A stretch of DNA of 64,000 nt, taken from Hyaloscypha bicolor E (Eukaryota; Ascomycota; Leotiomycetes; Helotiales; Hyaloscyphaceae). The notes beneath the pieces are model-generated. The model ran no database searches. It had not been told where the DNA came from and worked only from the letters and a program-made list of their open reading frames with translations. Positions 11,882 to 30,085 of this stretch are shown here, piece by piece. The translations under genes and the position numbers were made by a program. Location: contig NW_020194631.1 in NCBI RefSeq assembly GCF_002865645.1, positions 186,001 to 250,000 of the forward strand, in the 5' to 3' direction. Position 1 is the first letter of the stretch. Each line of letters begins with the position of its first letter.

Positions 11882-13719
11882 CTACCAACCCCTTCCTCTG
11901 CCCCATACTCTACCACGACTTCCTCTTCCTCCGCCCCGACCACCGCCTCTGCCTCTTCGGCCGAAACCACCGCCTCGCCTCGCTTCAGCAGGAGCAGGAC
12001 CACTTCTCATTCTCTCATCACGTTCCTCTTGTGTGGCGAAGAATTTATTCTCGATGCCAACCAGCTCACAGAATTGCCCCATTTGCGGATTGCTGTATTC
12101 CAATGGCCCGTCGTTGACGATTTCGGGACACCCAACGATGAAGGCAGGTGCTGTAAGCACGAAATTCTCTGGAATCTCCAATTTTCCCTTCTTCACAACG
12201 TTTTCGTCAATCCATAATTGCTCCTTTTCAATTAAAGGCCGATAATGATCTTCTCCTAGACTTTGAGGTAGTTTGGCACTCTTGTCCCCAAGGACCAAGT
12301 CAGAAGCGAAGACTCGAGTAATGGCTAGCCACTCCGGATCATATTCGAATTTTGGCTTTGGCCGGGAAGAGGGTGCCTCGGAAAAAGTAGATTGAGTCTC
12401 GGGCTGCGCATATGGCGTGACCTCAAGAAGTTGCAAAAACTTGCGGCTAGGTAAGCACTTATCGAGGGCAAGGAATCGAACAGTCTTGTTCGTCACATCG
12501 GGCGGCGTAGGTTGGCCAGGCTGTTGCCGTTGAGACGGAGGGGCAGGTCTTGAAAAGGTTGAAGGTAACTGAGCTCGAAGATCTTCGGGGACGGCTGATA
12601 GAGCAGGCCCACCACCAACTGGCTCGTCTTCATCTAAGCTTATTTCATCTTGGTTTTTCAAGACTGATGTACCGTTTGTTGCTACAGTCTGTTTGGGGAC
12701 CGCTTCATCGTCATCTATATCAAGGTCAATTTCATCCGTATTATGAATATCTGCAGGCTCGATGGATTCTTTGGCAGTCGACCCATTTGTATCAGCAATA
12801 TTGGTAGTCGAAATGTCTTTGGCTACTGTTGTATCCTCGTACGTCTTGGTTGCGGCAAACTTGCAGTGCATATGAGCAGCAAACCAGTATGGAGGTCTTA
12901 GACGATCCATAACATATGCTGCAGCTTGACTCCCCAGAGTGCCATCCTTTGATTCCTGTTCAAAGTCCGGTTTCATGTTGAATAGGGCTCTTGAATTTCC
13001 GTGATTTTCAATTGCCCTCGGCCAATCGTGGCTGATGCCAATATCCACTTGCGTCCTCAGCTGGAGCAACTTTCTCGTGTCAAGTTCTCGTACATGGTAT
13101 ATCGACTTGACATCATCCTCGTTGTACGGTAGTCGTTCATGATGCGGTTTGTTGAAGTTGTACCCTTTCCAGATTCCAGACATGCCAGCAATCCTAACAC
13201 CACCAAGTCGGACAACATTTGCAGCTCCCATGTAGTAAATGTTTGGGGCAACCCATCCTCCGTAGTAGAGTTCCCACAAATGACTGCTTGCTTCATGGTT
13301 GCCTCCGACAAAGATTGTAAGGTAAGGAGCTTTGGCCGAACCGCCATAGTATGAATGGAAGTCACCAATCTCGCGATACTTCACGGGGCAGGACATCACA
13401 GTGAGGTCCTGAGCATTGCGAACCGCCTGGGCTTGTTAGACACAAATTCAAGAGTACAACGGAACCATGCCTGAAAGTCCCCCCCAATAATGAGCAAATC
13501 AACACCATCCCAACCTCGAACTTCGCATGATTTTTTCACGGATGCGTAAATTGCATGCAGCGTGCCATGACCCTGTTTGGAATCAGACGTGCCCATTTGA
13601 TCTGGGGAAGTCACTTGAACATACACAGCCTTCAACGGCAATTCGCAAGCCGTGCGAGGCGTGGAGGACAGGCTCCATTCTGGGCTAACAGGTTTATCAA
13701 GAAGACAGAGGACTTTCAT
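11882..13719 (-). CDS. dbr1: RNA lariat debranching enzyme Dbr1
   Basis: Exons 13719-13471 and 13426-11882 encode 597 aa. The metallophosphoesterase core shows GHGTLHAIYAS, DLLIIGGDFQ joined across the intron to AVRNAQDLTVMSCP, then IFVGGNHEAS, YMGAANVVRLGGVRIAGMSG, DIGISHDWP and WFAAHMHCKF, the metal-binding and substrate loops of DBR1. The DBR1 C-terminal domain follows (TRFLALDKCLP-like), and the tail is an RGG-type stretch. Family knowledge: it cleaves the 2'-5' bond of intron lariats so that they can be degraded. The intron (13470-13427, 44 nt) starts with GC and is required to keep DFQAVRN intact. The stretch VTSPDQMGTSDSKQ (about residues 36-49) may itself be a 42-nt in-frame intron, because it interrupts the first conserved motif. 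It diverges from the Rpr2-type gene. Confidence 0.93.
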
Positions 13720-24174: not shown

Positions 24175-25605
24175 CTATTGACCATTCTCCACGCAATCCA
24201 ACGAGCACTCCCTAATTGCGGGCCCCCCTCTCCCTCTCCCTCTGCCTCCTCTGCCTCTCCCACGCCCGCCTGTGCCACGCTGTGCACCCCCCACCCCTCG
24301 CTTCGCACCTTGGGAGCTGCCTCCGTCAAACCTCTCGTACATTTGTTCTTCTCCAAAAGCAGCTTCGCCTAGCTGCAAGTAGCTGATAACCCCTTGGTCA
24401 TTGACGGCCAAGACCACATTTCGCCAACCATGTTTCAACCTTCCGTAACTCTTAGCATTGCCTTCCCAATCGGGATTTGGGGGGTCCCATGGCGTGCTCT
24501 CCAGCAAAGAGGTGATTTGCGTGAGGGTTGGGACAGAGCTTGAACGAGCATCGGCAATTGCAACACGGAAGTCGGGCGCTCCAGGGTTGCTCTTGGCAAA
24601 AGTCGCAAGCTTACTAGCCCTCCATAAGAAGTAGGCAACACGAAATGGCTCCTCTGGCGACGGCGCGGGTTCCGGAGGCACTACGCAAGGTTTGTGACGC
24701 GGAATGATTGCAATTTGTCGGTAGATCGTATTGTACGATCTGTACATACCTGGTCGTACCAGCGGACCGTACAAAGGGCGCTCCCTCCCCCTCTCAGCAA
24801 AACGCCCGAAAAGCCAAGTGATGAGACTTGGGGACTCTGCTGTTCGTTGAATAATGGTTGGACTGTTGTGGTCGACATCTGTGCTGGAACCCAAATCTGG
24901 CGCTCTGGCGATTGCATAGCCCGTCCGCTTGAGATTCGCATAGACAGTGTATCTTTCCAGGCTGACTTTGCCTCTCTCTCCATCCTTGCCGATCAACATA
25001 GCGTATGCAGCTTGTAAACTCATAGGCACACCGAGGTCTTCTTCTGCCTGGTCGTCCGTCTCCGTTGATTTTCGACTGCCCTGAATGCCTTCATGCACGC
25101 TCGCGAATGAGGACCTTGTAGGCCACCAAAGATCAAGATTCCCTCGCTCAACTAGATAAAGCGCCTCCTCTGGCAAGAGCCATATGCTTCCATACTTGTG
25201 ACCCTGTGTAGTCTTGCCCATTGTCTTGAAGTGTGGGCCTTTCGATGATTCTACGACGACAATATGGTCCTCATCTAAGCCCCGTCTCAACTCCTCTGCG
25301 ATAACTTCGTCTCGATTCAGGCCGTCCTCACCATAATAGTAGCCCCGCAAATACGCCTTTGGTGGATGAACCCTCGTATGCGATAAGGCATCATGCATTG
25401 CCTGCCTGCTTGCCTCCAAGATCCCCCCTTGATGTTTCGTGCCATGTGGTTCGAAGTCTTTCTCTCCTCGTTTCGGGAGCTTAGCAGATTTCGAGGATAA
25501 GGATGCAAGGAACCGGAAATCAGGCAGATCGTCGACTAGGTCGTTGTCATCGTTCGATTGGTCTTGTAGAGTAACCGCCGTAATATCATCATCCAAGTCC
25601 GCCAT
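24175..25605 (-). CDS. sen54: tRNA-splicing endonuclease subunit Sen54
   Basis: A single exon of 476 aa starting MADLDDDITAVTL. The conserved Sen54 N-terminal domain spans about 45-240: YYYGEDGLNRDEV, GHKYGSIWLLPEEALYLVERG, LDLWWP, then PMSLQAAYAMLIG and YTVYANLKRTGYAI. The C-terminal part (about 375-440) holds RVAIADARSSSVPTL and a GRLKHGWRNVVLAV strand, followed by an RG-rich basic tail. Family knowledge: Sen54 is a structural subunit of the four-part endonuclease (Sen2, Sen34, Sen15, Sen54) that cuts the canonical intron from pre-tRNAs. The start was placed at the internal Met because that is where the conserved acidic N-terminus begins; the open frame continues 32 codons upstream. An intron-bearing tRNA gene lies about 2 kb away. 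Confidence 0.88.
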   Translation of the reverse strand: MADLDDDITAVTLQDQSNDDNDLVDDLPDFRFLASLSSKSAKLPKRGEKDFEPHGTKHQGGILEASRQAMHDALSHTRVHPPKAYLRGYYYGEDGLNRDEVIAEELRRGLDEDHIVVVESSKGPHFKTMGKTTQGHKYGSIWLLPEEALYLVERGNLDLWWPTRSSFASVHEGIQGSRKSTETDDQAEEDLGVPMSLQAAYAMLIGKDGERGKVSLERYTVYANLKRTGYAIARAPDLGSSTDVDHNSPTIIQRTAESPSLITWLFGRFAERGRERPLYGPLVRPGMYRSYNTIYRQIAIIPRHKPCVVPPEPAPSPEEPFRVAYFLWRASKLATFAKSNPGAPDFRVAIADARSSSVPTLTQITSLLESTPWDPPNPDWEGNAKSYGRLKHGWRNVVLAVNDQGVISYLQLGEAAFGEEQMYERFDGGSSQGAKRGVGGAQRGTGGRGRGRGGRGRGRGGPAIRECSLDCVENGQ

Positions 25606-26289
25606 TGTGGGTTGTTTGTTGAGTTTGTGGGAGTTCGCGAACTTGGCATGAGATATTTGAATTTCTGACTCTTCTTGCAAACACAACTCAGCCTCGTGCA
25701 AGGGCCATCCGCTGCAGCCACGGCAGCCTCGCTAACGGATTCTTGGGACCACATTTTATCAATTGTTTTCATATTGAAATAAGCCGCCATCGGAGTTCGC
25801 CGGGAAGTCCTCTGTTATGCCGAGTAAATATTCCAGACCGGGTGAATTATCAGGGTGTGACAAGAGTTCGGGGGTATATCACATGTGAAATTATAAAACT
25901 AGTCACGTGAGCCGACAATGTTCTAGGTACGTGACCAAATAATTTTCGCTACTTCAGAGGCTTCATTTTATTGCCTCACAAACAAATTCCTCTTCTTTAA
26001 CAATTCAATACGACGTCGATGATGTCCATCCTTTGATCAATCACGTAGTTAGAAACTCTCTGTTGATCGGGTCACTCCCCGACCCGCTCTGGTTGTACAT
26101 GCCAGAGAGTGAGTAACCAAACTGAACAAGAAGCAAGCAAAGATCAATGTTGAGTCTGGGGACCGATTGCGCAGCCAACAAGACAATCACAGATTTGTCC
26201 TCGATTGCTCGAAATGATGGCCCTCACATGCTTGACGCCAATTCGCGAATCGCTAGTACCCGCTGCTATCACGCCCCGGCTGCTATTTG
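25606..26289. other. sen54 promoter region
   Basis: No gene is seen on either strand. The palindromic octamer TCACGTGA sits at 25903-25910, about 300 bp before the sen54 start. The plus-strand frame at 26205-26699 is antisense to the small gene described next. Confidence 0.45.
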
Positions 26290-26981
26290 TCAGCACTGTT
26301 CGGGAATTGGGAAGCAGTTTAAGAAAGCCTGAGTGGGCGCATCGGGGCTCCATTTGGAATATGGCAGAGTACCATCCATCTCAGGAGCTGCAAGGGCGGT
26401 CCGGTGGCTTTCGACTCCCAGTAATGGGGCGTCCTCAACGTCAGGTTCCTCGATGCAGCTCCATGGACAAAGGTAGCCAACCCACGCAGTCTTCTTCAAC
26501 ATCCGTATGGCCGCTGGCGTCTTGTGGCCCCCTCCGTAGTTCGCTTTGCGAGATATCTCGTAAAAGGACTTCCAGTGGATCAGCCGGAACGGGGCTTCCG
26601 TCGAGCCACTTTCGATTGCAGCCAACAGCATCAACGAGCTTTCTTCGAAGCGGCGATGTTCATCGATATGAAATGCGCAGCTTTCGCCCAGTCCTTTAGT
26701 CGTGCAGTGATGATACGACCTTTCAGGTTACCCGTGAGAAGATCCCTCATTTGAAAAAGTCTAGAGTATCTGATCTAACCTGAGAACTTGTTGTCTGGCG
26801 ATAGAAGAGCGATGCCTTCCTGGATTGTGTTGGATTCGAGGGTCTGAAAGCTCACGAGATCACCAACTCTGGGAGGACGATGGTTATCTGTGAATTTGGC
26901 GGGTACAACTAAAAGAATTTAAGTAGGTACGCAAGCCTAAGCGCTTGAATACTTACGCCAGAATAGGAATTGAAAAGCCAT
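26290..26981 (-). CDS. Small three-exon hypothetical protein
   Basis: Three exons (26981-26957, 26908-26780, 26693-26290; introns of 48 and 86 nt) give exactly 186 codons (185 aa). Exon 1 begins MAFQFLFW; exon 2 reads VPAKFTDNHRPPRVGDLVSF and ALLSPDNKFSG; exon 3 reads LGESCAFHIDEHRRFEESS, FYEISRKANYGGGHKTPAA, VGYLCPWSCIEEPD and ends CFPIPEQC. Donors are GTAAGT and GTTAGA, with acceptors TTTTAG and AAAG. The second intron is the least certain part, since shorter alternatives all run into stops. Not recognised as any family; no transmembrane segment beyond a hydrophobic N-terminus, which could be a weak signal. Only the last exon is an obvious open frame. Confidence 0.6.
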
Positions 26982-27449
26982 TCTCGAAGTAGTTGTATGC
27001 GATCTTGTCATATGGTTGACGTGGATTTGATGGTAGATACGCTTGCTGTATCTTCAATATCTATTGAAGCATTTTGCTCACTTCACTTAATAAATACAAC
27101 CTTGGAGATGTAACATTGGAGACAGTTGACCTTGAAAGGTGGGAAATTGCTCTAGGGAAAGCTTCAAAGCTTCGTCCTTCGGGAGTCAGTAAGCTTAATT
27201 CCATTCTCTTCTACTTGCTCGTGTCGTACTCTTTCCTAATAAAGATATAACCACTGAAAAATGAAAGCAATTTTTGCGATATATTACTTGATACTAGATT
27301 TCAATGACATTTTGGGGAGTTTTGAGCTCTTTACAGAGTCCTTCATTTTTCTTCTAGAGTTGTGGCAGTTGAAGTTTGCGGGTGGGTTAGCTGGGGCAAA
27401 AAGAAGGCAGTCAAATATCAAATAGTAACAAACACCAAAAGATGTGAAT

Positions 27450-27610
27450 TGAACACTGAGAGATTCGAACTCTCGCGATTTCTCACTGCGGATCGTTTTA
27501 GTAGGCTTTCACCCAACCTAAACACAGCGCCTTAACCACTCCTTCCAGGAGGTTAGAATTATTTGAATATTCGATTTGGGATGTCAAAAGTCACTTACGG
27601 CCAAGTGTCC
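27450..27610 (-). tRNA. tRNA-Leu(UAG) with two introns, one spliceosomal-like
   Basis: Reading the minus strand, GGACACT (27610-27604) pairs fully with AGTGTTC (27457-27451; six Watson-Crick pairs and one G-U), with discriminator A at 27450. TG and GCC follow, then a 57-nt insertion (27598-27542). After it come GAGTGGTTAA, GGC, G, the anticodon stem CTGTG, and the loop TTTAGG holding anticodon UAG. Then comes a canonical intron of about 25 nt whose CCTA can pair with the anticodon, the other stem strand CGCAG, a variable arm, GAGAG, TTCGAAT and CTCTC. Long variable arm, UAG and discriminator A fit leucine. TTTT at 27440-27437 is a fitting Pol III terminator and the B box (GTTCGAATC) is intact. 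Without removal of the 57 nt the D arm and A box are broken. A pseudogene is the main alternative. Confidence 0.8.
27542..27598 (-). other. Spliceosomal-type intron inside the tRNA D arm
   Basis: The 57-nt insertion starts GTAAGT, has TCTAAC with its branch adenosine about 11 nt before the end, and ends GGAAG. These match the protein-gene introns of this window in length and signals. It lies between tRNA positions 12 and 13; excising it joins TGGCC to GAGTGG, the consensus tRNA-Leu A box and D arm. The boundary could slide by one G without changing the product. It does not resemble a canonical tRNA intron, which sits after position 37. Confidence 0.7.
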
Positions 27611-28092
27611 TTTTTTCAACTTAGTCGGAAATTTTTCTTATTTTGGATTATTAAGCCCATCAGATTTTATCATTGGGTTCCAGGGGCTTTCACGTGACAC
27701 ACACTTCCGAAATGCCCCGTGCCCCCCCTATCATACCCCTTTGTCTTCACCTAGTTTGGAATATTTACTCCGCAAGGCTAAAAGAGTTCGGCCGGTACGC
27801 GTCGCTCCCTTAAAACCTCCGAAACATTATCACTAATGGATGCTATAGAGTGGTTGAGGTGCTGTGTTTGGGCATCCGAAAGGAACCCAAAACGTCCGAA
27901 GGGGGTACGTAAAGTCCTAAAAATCTATCTATACCTAGGCTGTAGAAATGTTTCTTTTTTTGCTATTTTCACTCGAATCAGGCAGGTTCAACACCAAAGA
28001 GCTCCAAGACAAAGAAACGAAATGGCTCCTCTCGAATTTTGCTACCTTGTCTCTTGTATAACTGTAGGACCCTAGGCAAAGACCTTTTATAA

Positions 28093-28381
28093 TGTTCCTC
28101 TCTTAGCGAGTACTTTGAAAACCGAACGCCCTCAATTGTCCCATATGTCGTGAGTACACTGAGAACTGAATGCCGTTACTTGTTTTAAGTGTAGCAAGTA
28201 CATTGCAAAGCAAATGCCTCAGATGTTCCCCTATGCATGAGGTACAATGTCCACCGAGCGCTTCCAAAAGCTCACCTCGTCAAGTGGAACTTCAAACCCA
28301 ACGCATCTCAAGTGTTCCATGTGCAGCAGGTACAGTTATAACTGAAGAGTTGTTGTAAATGTTCCTTGTTCGAAAGGTACG
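28093..28381 (+). repeat. Decayed tandem repeat, about 44 bp unit
   Basis: A diverged unit of the form TGTTCC (about 12 nt) AGGTAC recurs at 28093, 28137, 28181, 28224, (a very worn copy near 28268), 28313 and 28360, so at steps of 43-47 bp. In one frame the copies would encode Cys-x-x-Cys followed two or three residues later by Tyr (CPICREY, CFKCSKY, CSMCSRY), but stops and length changes break the frame. This looks like the ruin of a gene for a short zinc-binding repeat; a non-coding repeat is the alternative. Confidence 0.5.
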
Positions 28382-28612
28382 TCGGTTTCAACTGCTCTGC
28401 AACAAACAAAACTATCATTGCATGGTAGTAAAGGCCTTCCAATTCAGTACCACACAGCGCTTACCATAGTCATCCTCGCAACACCATGCTCAAGATTCTG
28501 ATTTCCTTCATAGAATGGCTTTTGCGCCAAGCATAAAACATCTAGTCTTCGGGGTCAGCGTGCAACAACGCTAGTCTTGTGGTGGAAAGAAAGTGGCGCT
28601 CATCCTTCAGAT

Positions 28613-28916
28613 ATGCCAGTCACATTGGCCGTTCAACATAACGTGGACGAGGAGGACAAGGACTTGATTGTTATAAAACTTCCGGGACACCCGAAGGGGG
28701 TAGAGTCGGAGTAGACGATAAGTCGATGGAACAGTCGGAGAAGGAGCAGCCAATGAAAAGTTCAACTGGACATGGCATATTGAGATCACACACGAATCTC
28801 GTCCCGATGACGAGTTTGACGATTTAAATTTTCTTCTCTTTCTGTTCCTCGTCTCTCCGTCTCCAGAGGACTTGGAGGTTCTGTGGCCTTTTGACTCTAA
28901 GACAAACTCTTGCTGA
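28613..28916 (+). pseudogene. Possible broken gene fragment
   Basis: ATG at 28613 opens MPVTLAVQHNVDEEDKDLIV and IKLPGHPKGVESE, then a stop. Another frame of the same strand takes over with GEGAANEKFNWTWHIEITHE, SRPDDEFDDLNFLLFLF and a stop at 28914-28916. Both parts read like protein, so a frame break is suspected. It may continue the repeat-bearing remnant just upstream. No family is recognised. Confidence 0.25.
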
Positions 28917-29010
28917 AGCCCTTCATAGGGGTCAGGGGACTGGAATGTTCTATAGATGAACCATGGGTATCGTGTCCGAGGTATTCAATTCAGAAAGTCC
29001 CCGATATCCT

Positions 29011-29553
29011 TCAGCCAGCCAGAGGATTTGCATGTATTGTAACCCTCTCAATTTTGATCTCCTCCTTCGGCCGATTCTTTTTGTCCACCTCGCTACCCTC
29101 CATTTTCGACAGTATTGCCAGGCTATCATCCCCCAAGACATGACCAAAGACTGTGTTCTTCCCATCCAGATGCGGTGCCTTTTCAAAGCATATAAAGAAT
29201 TGGCTACCATTCGTCGCAGGTCCTTTGTTGGCCATACTGACAATGCCTCGAGCGTTGTGCCGCAATGAAGGTCGAATCTCGTCTTCGAAAGGTTCTTCCC
29301 AGATAGATACGCCGCCTTTCGGTTGAGAGGGAGGAGCTCCAGTTTGGATCATGAAATGCGGTATGAGGCGGTGAAAGAGAGAGCCATCGTAGTAACCCGA
29401 GGCGCAAAGGGCAAGGAAGTTCTAGAAGCTGGTAAATGATATGTTTCAAACTTGTGGGGAATATGAGATACCTACCTCTGCTGTCTTGGGCACACTCTCA
29501 CAGAAGACCTCGATCTTGATGTCACCGAGATTCGTATGCAGAGTGACAGACAT
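29011..29553 (-). CDS. cyp10: Cyclophilin, PPIL3/Cyp10 type peptidyl-prolyl isomerase
   Basis: Exons 29553-29476 and 29421-29011 (54-nt intron) encode 162 aa, a single cyclophilin domain. It begins MSVTLHTNLGDIKIEVFCE, with the active-site segment FHRLIPHFMIQTG, then GIVSMANKGPATNGSQFF, the DGKNTVFGHV loop and a VTIHANPLAG end. The Trp that binds cyclosporin in CypA is replaced by His (APHLDGKN), as in PPIL3-type proteins, so drug binding should be weak. Family knowledge: PPIL3 is a spliceosome-associated nuclear isomerase. Assignment to PPIL3 rather than PPIL1 rests on the N-terminal sequence and the ITIHANP-like end. It diverges from the arrestin-like gene. Confidence 0.92.
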
Positions 29554-30085
29554 GGTGAACGGATGAGGTTCTCGAACGCAGCATCGTTGTTGGATGTTCA
29601 GTTGTTGTAGGGCTGAAGCTTCAAGACGGCGGGACTTTTTCCTCGCACGGCCCCCCGCAAGTTTATCAGCCCGCTAGCCAATTATTGTTGACGGTCTCCG
29701 AAAGCAGCCATCGAGTAAGCGACCATCCATGCTCTGCCTGGCCTCGACAGCCGCCCTCGAACATTCACCGCAGGCCGAGAACAAAGGACCACGGCTTCTT
29801 AGACAACGGAGCCTCATGCAATTCACGTCTTCAAACAAAGAGCTTCACTACGATCGAGCCTTGACGACTCGCTATTCCCATAGCGCTGGAGTATCAACAA
29901 ACGAGCAGAGCCTTGCTTATGGTGACGACGAGCTCCCCCCAAATCAGCCCTAGCATCTCAGCATACAATATTGCAACGTCGCAACCCATATGATCCCACG
30001 GTCGCTGCAATACCGCCCGGTCTGTCGACACCGCAATCATCTTGGCGCAAACCGCGAGGTAGCGCCAGCGTGAGCCCGAGACAAG
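29554..30085. promoter_or_regulatory. Divergent promoter of cyp10 and arrestin-like gene
   Basis: 532 bp separate the two start codons. A 74-codon frame (29729-29953) on the plus strand may be an upstream frame in the arrestin-like leader, but it shows no similarity that I recognise. Confidence 0.45.

Follow-up and report, generated by a model that had tools for sequence, protein, structure and literature searches.

A tRNA-Leu(UAG) gene that is interrupted twice lies in a 64,000-nt stretch of the genome of Hyaloscypha bicolor E, a mycorrhizal, root-associated fungus (contig NW_020194631.1; the whole stretch is called here the window). The gene occupies positions 27610-27450 of the minus strand, and its parts follow one another on that strand in this order: (i) exon 1 (GGACACTTGGCC, 12 nt, 27610-27599), which holds the 5' acceptor strand and ends at mature position 12; (ii) an mRNA-type intron of 57 nt (27598-27542), placed between positions 12 and 13, which begins with GTAAGT, ends with TGGAAG and contains the branch-site motif TCTAAC (27557-27552), whose putative branch A, at 27553, lies 11 nt from the 3' end; (iii) exon 2 (GAGTGGTTAAGGCGCTGTGTTTAGG, 25 nt, 27541-27517), with the remaining D arm and the anticodon TAG, reaching to position 37; (iv) a canonical tRNA intron of 25 nt at 37/38 (27516-27492); and (v) exon 3 (42 nt, 27491-27450), with the 3' anticodon strand, the variable arm, the T arm, the 3' acceptor strand and discriminator A. 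The splice register of the 57-nt intron is ambiguous by one base.

With this insertion removed, ARAGORN calls a tRNA-Leu(tag) with an intron i(38,25) and a score of 109.9; it makes no call on the uncut stretch, and with bacterial settings it calls no tRNA in the whole window. The joined exons have the cloverleaf stems, the class II variable arm, the discriminator A and the anticodon TAG of a tRNA-Leu(UAG), all seven acceptor pairs (one of them G-U) and all five T-stem pairs being standard. The anatomy and coordinates given in the original prediction thus hold, as does its claim that the canonical intron is kept alongside the new one. Three open reading frames (ORFs) of the window together contain 17 CUA codons. 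A methyltransferase ORF of the window (348 aa) matches a protein of H. bicolor E at 100%, and two other proteins have their nearest cluster representatives, in a database clustered at 90%, at 92% and 97%; the taxonomic placement is Leotiomycetes, Helotiales.

The arrangement recurs across the genome, which comprises 82.0 Mb in 76 contigs. Places resembling tRNAs came from three sources: (i) an Rfam tRNA search, in which 63 of 3058 candidates were scored, with 28 matches; (ii) exon and D-arm patterns; and (iii) a B-box pattern, for which 100 of 195 matches were taken, 88 of them newly fetched. On 356 stranded sequences a parser excised one or two GT/GC..AG segments and submitted the product to ARAGORN, the same rule with a mirrored motif serving as control. 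When a branch motif was required, a spliced reading came out on top at 13 places under the real rule and at 1 under the mirrored one; when it was not required, at 15 places and 6, respectively. Doubtful parses were dropped (L159 and L016 from the former run; L159, L112 and L150 from the latter). In total, at least 13 tRNA genes, the window gene included, carry at least 17 mRNA-type introns. The 12 further genes read as tRNAs only after one or two segments are excised, save that in Arg-UCU, whose uncut form also scores, excision improves the reading (122.0 vs 116.3).

These introns, placed here by the number of mature nucleotides that precede them, counted from nt 1, range from 6/7 to 71/72 (n = 17). 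Single introns stand after nucleotide 6 in Glu-CUC (L024), 7 in Arg-UCU (L002), 8 in Lys-CUU (L035), 12 in both the window Leu-UAG and His-GUG (L116), 16 in Arg-ACG (L123), 18 in one Gln-UUG gene (L188, the weakest of the thirteen), 50 in Ala-AGC (L026) and 52 in Thr-AGU (L007). At least four genes have two introns each: Arg-UCG (L018, after 7 and 10, with a 3-nt exon, TGG, between them), Gln-CUG (L103, after 7 and 13, with a 6-nt exon between them), a second Gln-UUG gene (L071, after 26 and within the variable region) and Arg-CCG (L133 with L192, after 23 and between 71 and 72). By our reading, an anticodon-loop intron is also retained in Leu, both Gln-UUG, His, Lys and Arg-CCG. Across the introns of the 13 genes, 91 of 91 acceptor pairs and 63 of 65 T-stem pairs are preserved. 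Eight genes read as lacking mRNA-type introns: Ala-UGC (L001), Lys-CUU (L003), two Gly-GCC (L005, L006), two Asp-GUC (L077, L089), Val-UAC (L008) and Phe-GAA (L020), the Asp and Val assignments of L077 and L008 being ours, as ARAGORN names another amino acid for these two.

The segment to be excised was also chosen blindly at the nine single-insertion loci, each 30-120-nt segment being removed and the products scored by ARAGORN with splice signals ignored. At the window gene there were 75 distinct products with a junction-spanning tRNA, only two of them compatible with GT-AG, and the GT-AG product was the sole top scorer, which upholds the original claim of a 57-nt mRNA-type intron at 12/13 marked by GTAAGT, TCTAAC and AG. 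In 7 of the 9 loci the GT-AG product came first, alone or in a tie: besides the window gene, it was the sole best in Glu-CUC (965 products), Thr-AGU (444) and His-GUG (44), and it was tied in Arg-UCU (2 tied), Arg-ACG (9 tied) and Lys-CUU (2 tied). These results bear on the possibility that chance, or the parser, yields excised segments that happen to leave tRNA-like sequence. The permissive parser does produce its 6 control places, and 3 of the 15 real-rule places had to be discarded as doubtful, but no control parse scores above 106.7, as against 107.8-122.5 for the 12 accepted loci, and the blind test favours the GT-AG product. Moreover, of 127,880 start positions on both strands of the window, with two registers allowed, 2 show the strict signal (57 nt starting with GTAAGT, with CTRAY among the last 20 nt, and ending in AG), the number expected if the single Leu site counts once in each register. 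An artefact of this kind is extremely unlikely.

A U6 small nuclear RNA (snRNA) gene shares the feature. mRNA-type introns occur in fungal U6 snRNA genes, for example in Schizosaccharomyces pombe, and a search for U6 in H. bicolor gave four matches above the cut-off, three of which were read. One of them (L189, C36:940325-940429, minus strand) is a U6 gene that reads GTTCTTCGGAACAT^gtacgt..cactaac..atag^TTGGTCAATTTGAAACGATACAGAG, and the two other U6-like genes (L190, L191) have, by eye, no comparable insert.

Taken as one set, the 17 tRNA introns and the U6 intron (n = 18) are 48-57 nt long, with a mean of 52. All 18 have GT(GC)..AG borders, one of them GC, and the acceptor AG is present in all; the six donor bases are G18, T17/C1, A15/G2/T1, A14/C3/T1, G18 and T14/C4, and a YTRAY branch motif lies 9-13 nt from the end in 17 of the 18 (16 of the 17 tRNA introns), donor base 6 and the branch distance being signals for which the search did not select. 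Two coding introns of the window, delimited by eye with fungal proteins as guide and too few for testing, resemble them (GTGAGC..ACTAAT..CAG and GTAAGT..GCTAAC..CAG). Two other classes were rejected. A mobile introner family does not fit, the longest stretch common to the introns being 9 nt, as against shuffled maxima of 7-10. Group I introns have a catalytic core and usually measure some 200 nt or more, unlike the introns found here; nor did cmscan report any match, and hence any Rfam intron family, in window positions 25000-30000 at E up to 1. A further class is that of ectopic tRNA introns of the bulge-helix-bulge (BHB) type, cut by the tRNA endonuclease, in which case the GT..AG look would be accidental. 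In this class, according to passages of a 2014 review (PMC4090602), introns at non-canonical positions are known, and a gene can have several of them. However, BHB pairing is at background in H. bicolor (in one simple geometry, a mean of 4.17 of 8 pairs vs 4.05 at random places, and a full central helix in 1 of 18 introns vs 6.4% of the background), the window intron stands at 12/13 and none of the other 16 tRNA introns at 37/38, and nearly all have GT..AG borders together with a branch site. We hold it very unlikely that the endonuclease accounts for them.

We read the 57 nt as a U2-type spliceosomal intron in what is probably a working nuclear tRNA-Leu(UAG) gene, one of many such introns that would have been gained repeatedly in tRNA genes, and we give this reading a probability of about 0.86. 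The observation itself is confirmed, and its interpretation as a spliceosomal intron, which extends to the other genes across the genome, is strongly supported. For a given amino acid, the isoacceptors mostly have their introns at different positions, which suggests separate gains.

A working gene has to be set against a dead one: the insertions could sit in surplus tRNA genes, with intact genes elsewhere supplying the tRNAs, a rival that the original prediction had itself raised. Several facts agree with it. A decayed, inverted partial tRNA-Leu copy adjoins the window gene (27838-27902, plus strand), its D arm lacking the 57-nt insert and its best part being identical in 22 of 25 bases; a decayed second tRNA-Glu(CUC)-like copy (L193, C54:486840-487130) bears an insert of its own, GTAAGG..ACTAAT..AG, inside the T loop; an uninterrupted Lys-CUU gene exists (L003); the Gln-UUG gene L188 has discriminator C and no upstream element of the kind described below; and, in passages of the review just cited (PMC4090602), insertions in the D and T arms of eukaryotic tRNA genes are mostly ascribed to pseudogenes. 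On the other side, a 24-base Leu exon pattern, allowing up to 3 mismatches, finds in the genome only the window gene and the decayed inverted copy some 300 bases away, although diverged copies could escape it. A query made of six of the 13 tRNAs joined together (Leu-UAG, Ala-AGC, Glu-CUC, Thr-AGU, Arg-UCG and Gln-CUG) returned ten pieces, nine of them exons at their own loci and one, on C54 (93%), the decayed Glu-like copy, so that no intact copy of these six tRNAs was found, again with the proviso that diverged copies could escape. Moreover, the stems are intact in the 13 genes, and the inserts are uniform, with sharp splice signals, unlike random decay. The search for further tRNA-Leu(UAG) genes that had been proposed thus disfavours dead copies, and we consider them unlikely. 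Two other queries add little: an unsplit Leu/Ser D-arm pattern, a weak probe for which there was no positive control, matched a single place (L194) that, judged by eye, is not a tRNA, and 26 yeast tRNAs joined into one DNA query gave no match, an uninformative result because the query also missed the genome's own tRNA-Gly genes.

Apart from the uninterrupted Lys-CUU gene and the published view of D- and T-arm insertions, the following points weigh against a spliceosomal intron in a working gene. (i) Two of the nine loci fail the blind test, 14 products scoring higher in Ala-AGC (L026) and 6 in Gln-UUG (L188). (ii) The weakest accepted loci, Lys-CUU (107.8) and His-GUG (108.1), barely exceed the top control parse, and Arg-CCG was read by eye and has no parser score. 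(iii) An energy fold of the joined Leu exons lacks the cloverleaf anticodon stem, although the acceptor, T and variable arms do form (z-score -2.0). (iv) The search itself asked for GT or GC, G at base 5, AG and, for the most part, the branch motif. (v) The census is incomplete and favours genes in which a D arm or a B box can be read.

How such a gene would be expressed can be proposed from its sequence. An AATAAG element lies 32 nt upstream of the tRNA start (27642-27637, minus strand), and ATAAG occurs within 75 nt upstream in 18 of 22 genes (11 of the 13 tRNA genes that are interrupted and 7 of the 8 that are not; the U6 gene lacks it), as against 7.8% of random stretches; AATAAG in most cases stands 24-50 nt ahead of the tRNA. 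It may be a TATA-like element of RNA polymerase III (Pol III), and transcription would probably be by this polymerase, through the upstream element together with the B box, as the A box is split by the intron. By eye, a TTTT at 27440-27437 (minus strand) is a possible Pol III terminator; avoidance of such runs within the introns is not significant (one run of at least 4 T vs 3.3 in shuffled sequences, P ~0.13). In the transcript, U1 and U2 would recognise the intron, and the spliceosome would excise the GU..AG segment as a lariat and ligate C12 to G13, whereas the 25-nt intron at 37/38 would be excised by the tRNA splicing endonuclease and a ligase; RNase P, RNase Z and CCA addition would complete the tRNA. 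In the genes with a 3-nt or 6-nt exon, one intron would have to go before the other. Over the genome as a whole, repeated gain would have given rise to the at least 17 introns in 13 tRNA genes and to that of one U6 gene. Elsewhere in the window, at 11882-13399 on the minus strand, there is an ORF that resembles, and may encode, the lariat debranching enzyme Dbr1.

The prevailing view is that nuclear tRNA introns are removed by endonuclease and ligase alone and that spliceosomes work on transcripts of Pol II, U6 and some ribosomal DNA (rDNA) being odd exceptions. The fungal U6 introns, that of H. bicolor included, are alike in being U2-type introns in a short Pol III transcript; they differ in that U6 is a component of the spliceosome, which tRNA is not, and in that here the tRNA gene family is affected, in many genes and at many positions. 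Lichen-forming and other ascomycetes have spliceosomal introns in nuclear rDNA (Bhattacharya et al. 2000, as cited in passages of PMC8527467), which are likewise short and lie in a non-coding transcript that is not made by Pol II, but their host is a Pol I rRNA and not a tRNA; the same passages (PMC8527467) report that the yeast spliceosome takes such introns out of Pol I rRNA, while in Meliniomyces isolates the rDNA introns are described, in an excerpt of PMC7959364, as group I. With the canonical 37/38 intron, of which the window gene has one too, the 57-nt intron shares neither position nor type: it stands at 12/13, has mRNA-type signals and lacks a BHB-like geometry. Among eukaryotes, the passages of the 2014 review name nucleomorphs and Cyanidioschyzon merolae as bearers of non-canonical tRNA introns (PMC4090602). 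Like those of archaea, these can occur in the D and T arms, several per gene and alongside canonical ones, but they are of the BHB type or very short (3-24 nt in Guillardia), whereas those of H. bicolor are uniform GT-AG introns of 48-57 nt with branch sites. Those passages contain no word starting with "spliceosom" (PMC4090602), and in passages of a 2026 review tRNA splicing is described as spliceosome-independent (PMC13149111). Excerpts of two nucleomorph papers (PMC4035089, PMC6461891) give no case of an mRNA-type tRNA intron, and searches of an open-access library listed none in a tRNA gene, as judged from titles, the openings of abstracts and passages.

It is fairly probable that introns of the U2 type, at almost any position, have come to occupy a large share, perhaps the majority, of the nuclear tRNA genes of this fungus, so that its translation would depend on the spliceosome for tRNAs, and Pol III transcripts would be routine substrates, with the endonuclease acting on the same RNAs. 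If this is true, the spliceosome can serve short, highly folded transcripts, and mRNA splicing is tied to decoding. The genes would also constitute a natural experiment on intron gain, in which each site and the intron-free state are legible in a molecule of known structure. Finally, standard tools would overlook such genes: cmscan (E up to 0.05) found a tRNA in 5 of the 10 interrupted loci that were given to it, and other genomes may conceal them likewise.

Some further tRNA-like sequences were seen in the screen. In five loci (L004, L019, L112, L146 and L147) the intron that ARAGORN places, 17-92 nt long, lies at loop positions 30-34 and not at 37/38, and no GT..AG was seen in them. A short tRNA-like sequence (L027/L032, C1:324305-324374, minus strand) is called Ser(aga) by ARAGORN despite having no long variable arm. 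Lastly, 14 AT-rich tRNA-Ala(AGC)-like repeats (L012-L017, L021-L023, L025 and L028-L031) have common flanks and lie mostly near contig ends, and the C-to-T differences among them resemble, by eye, repeat-induced point mutation.
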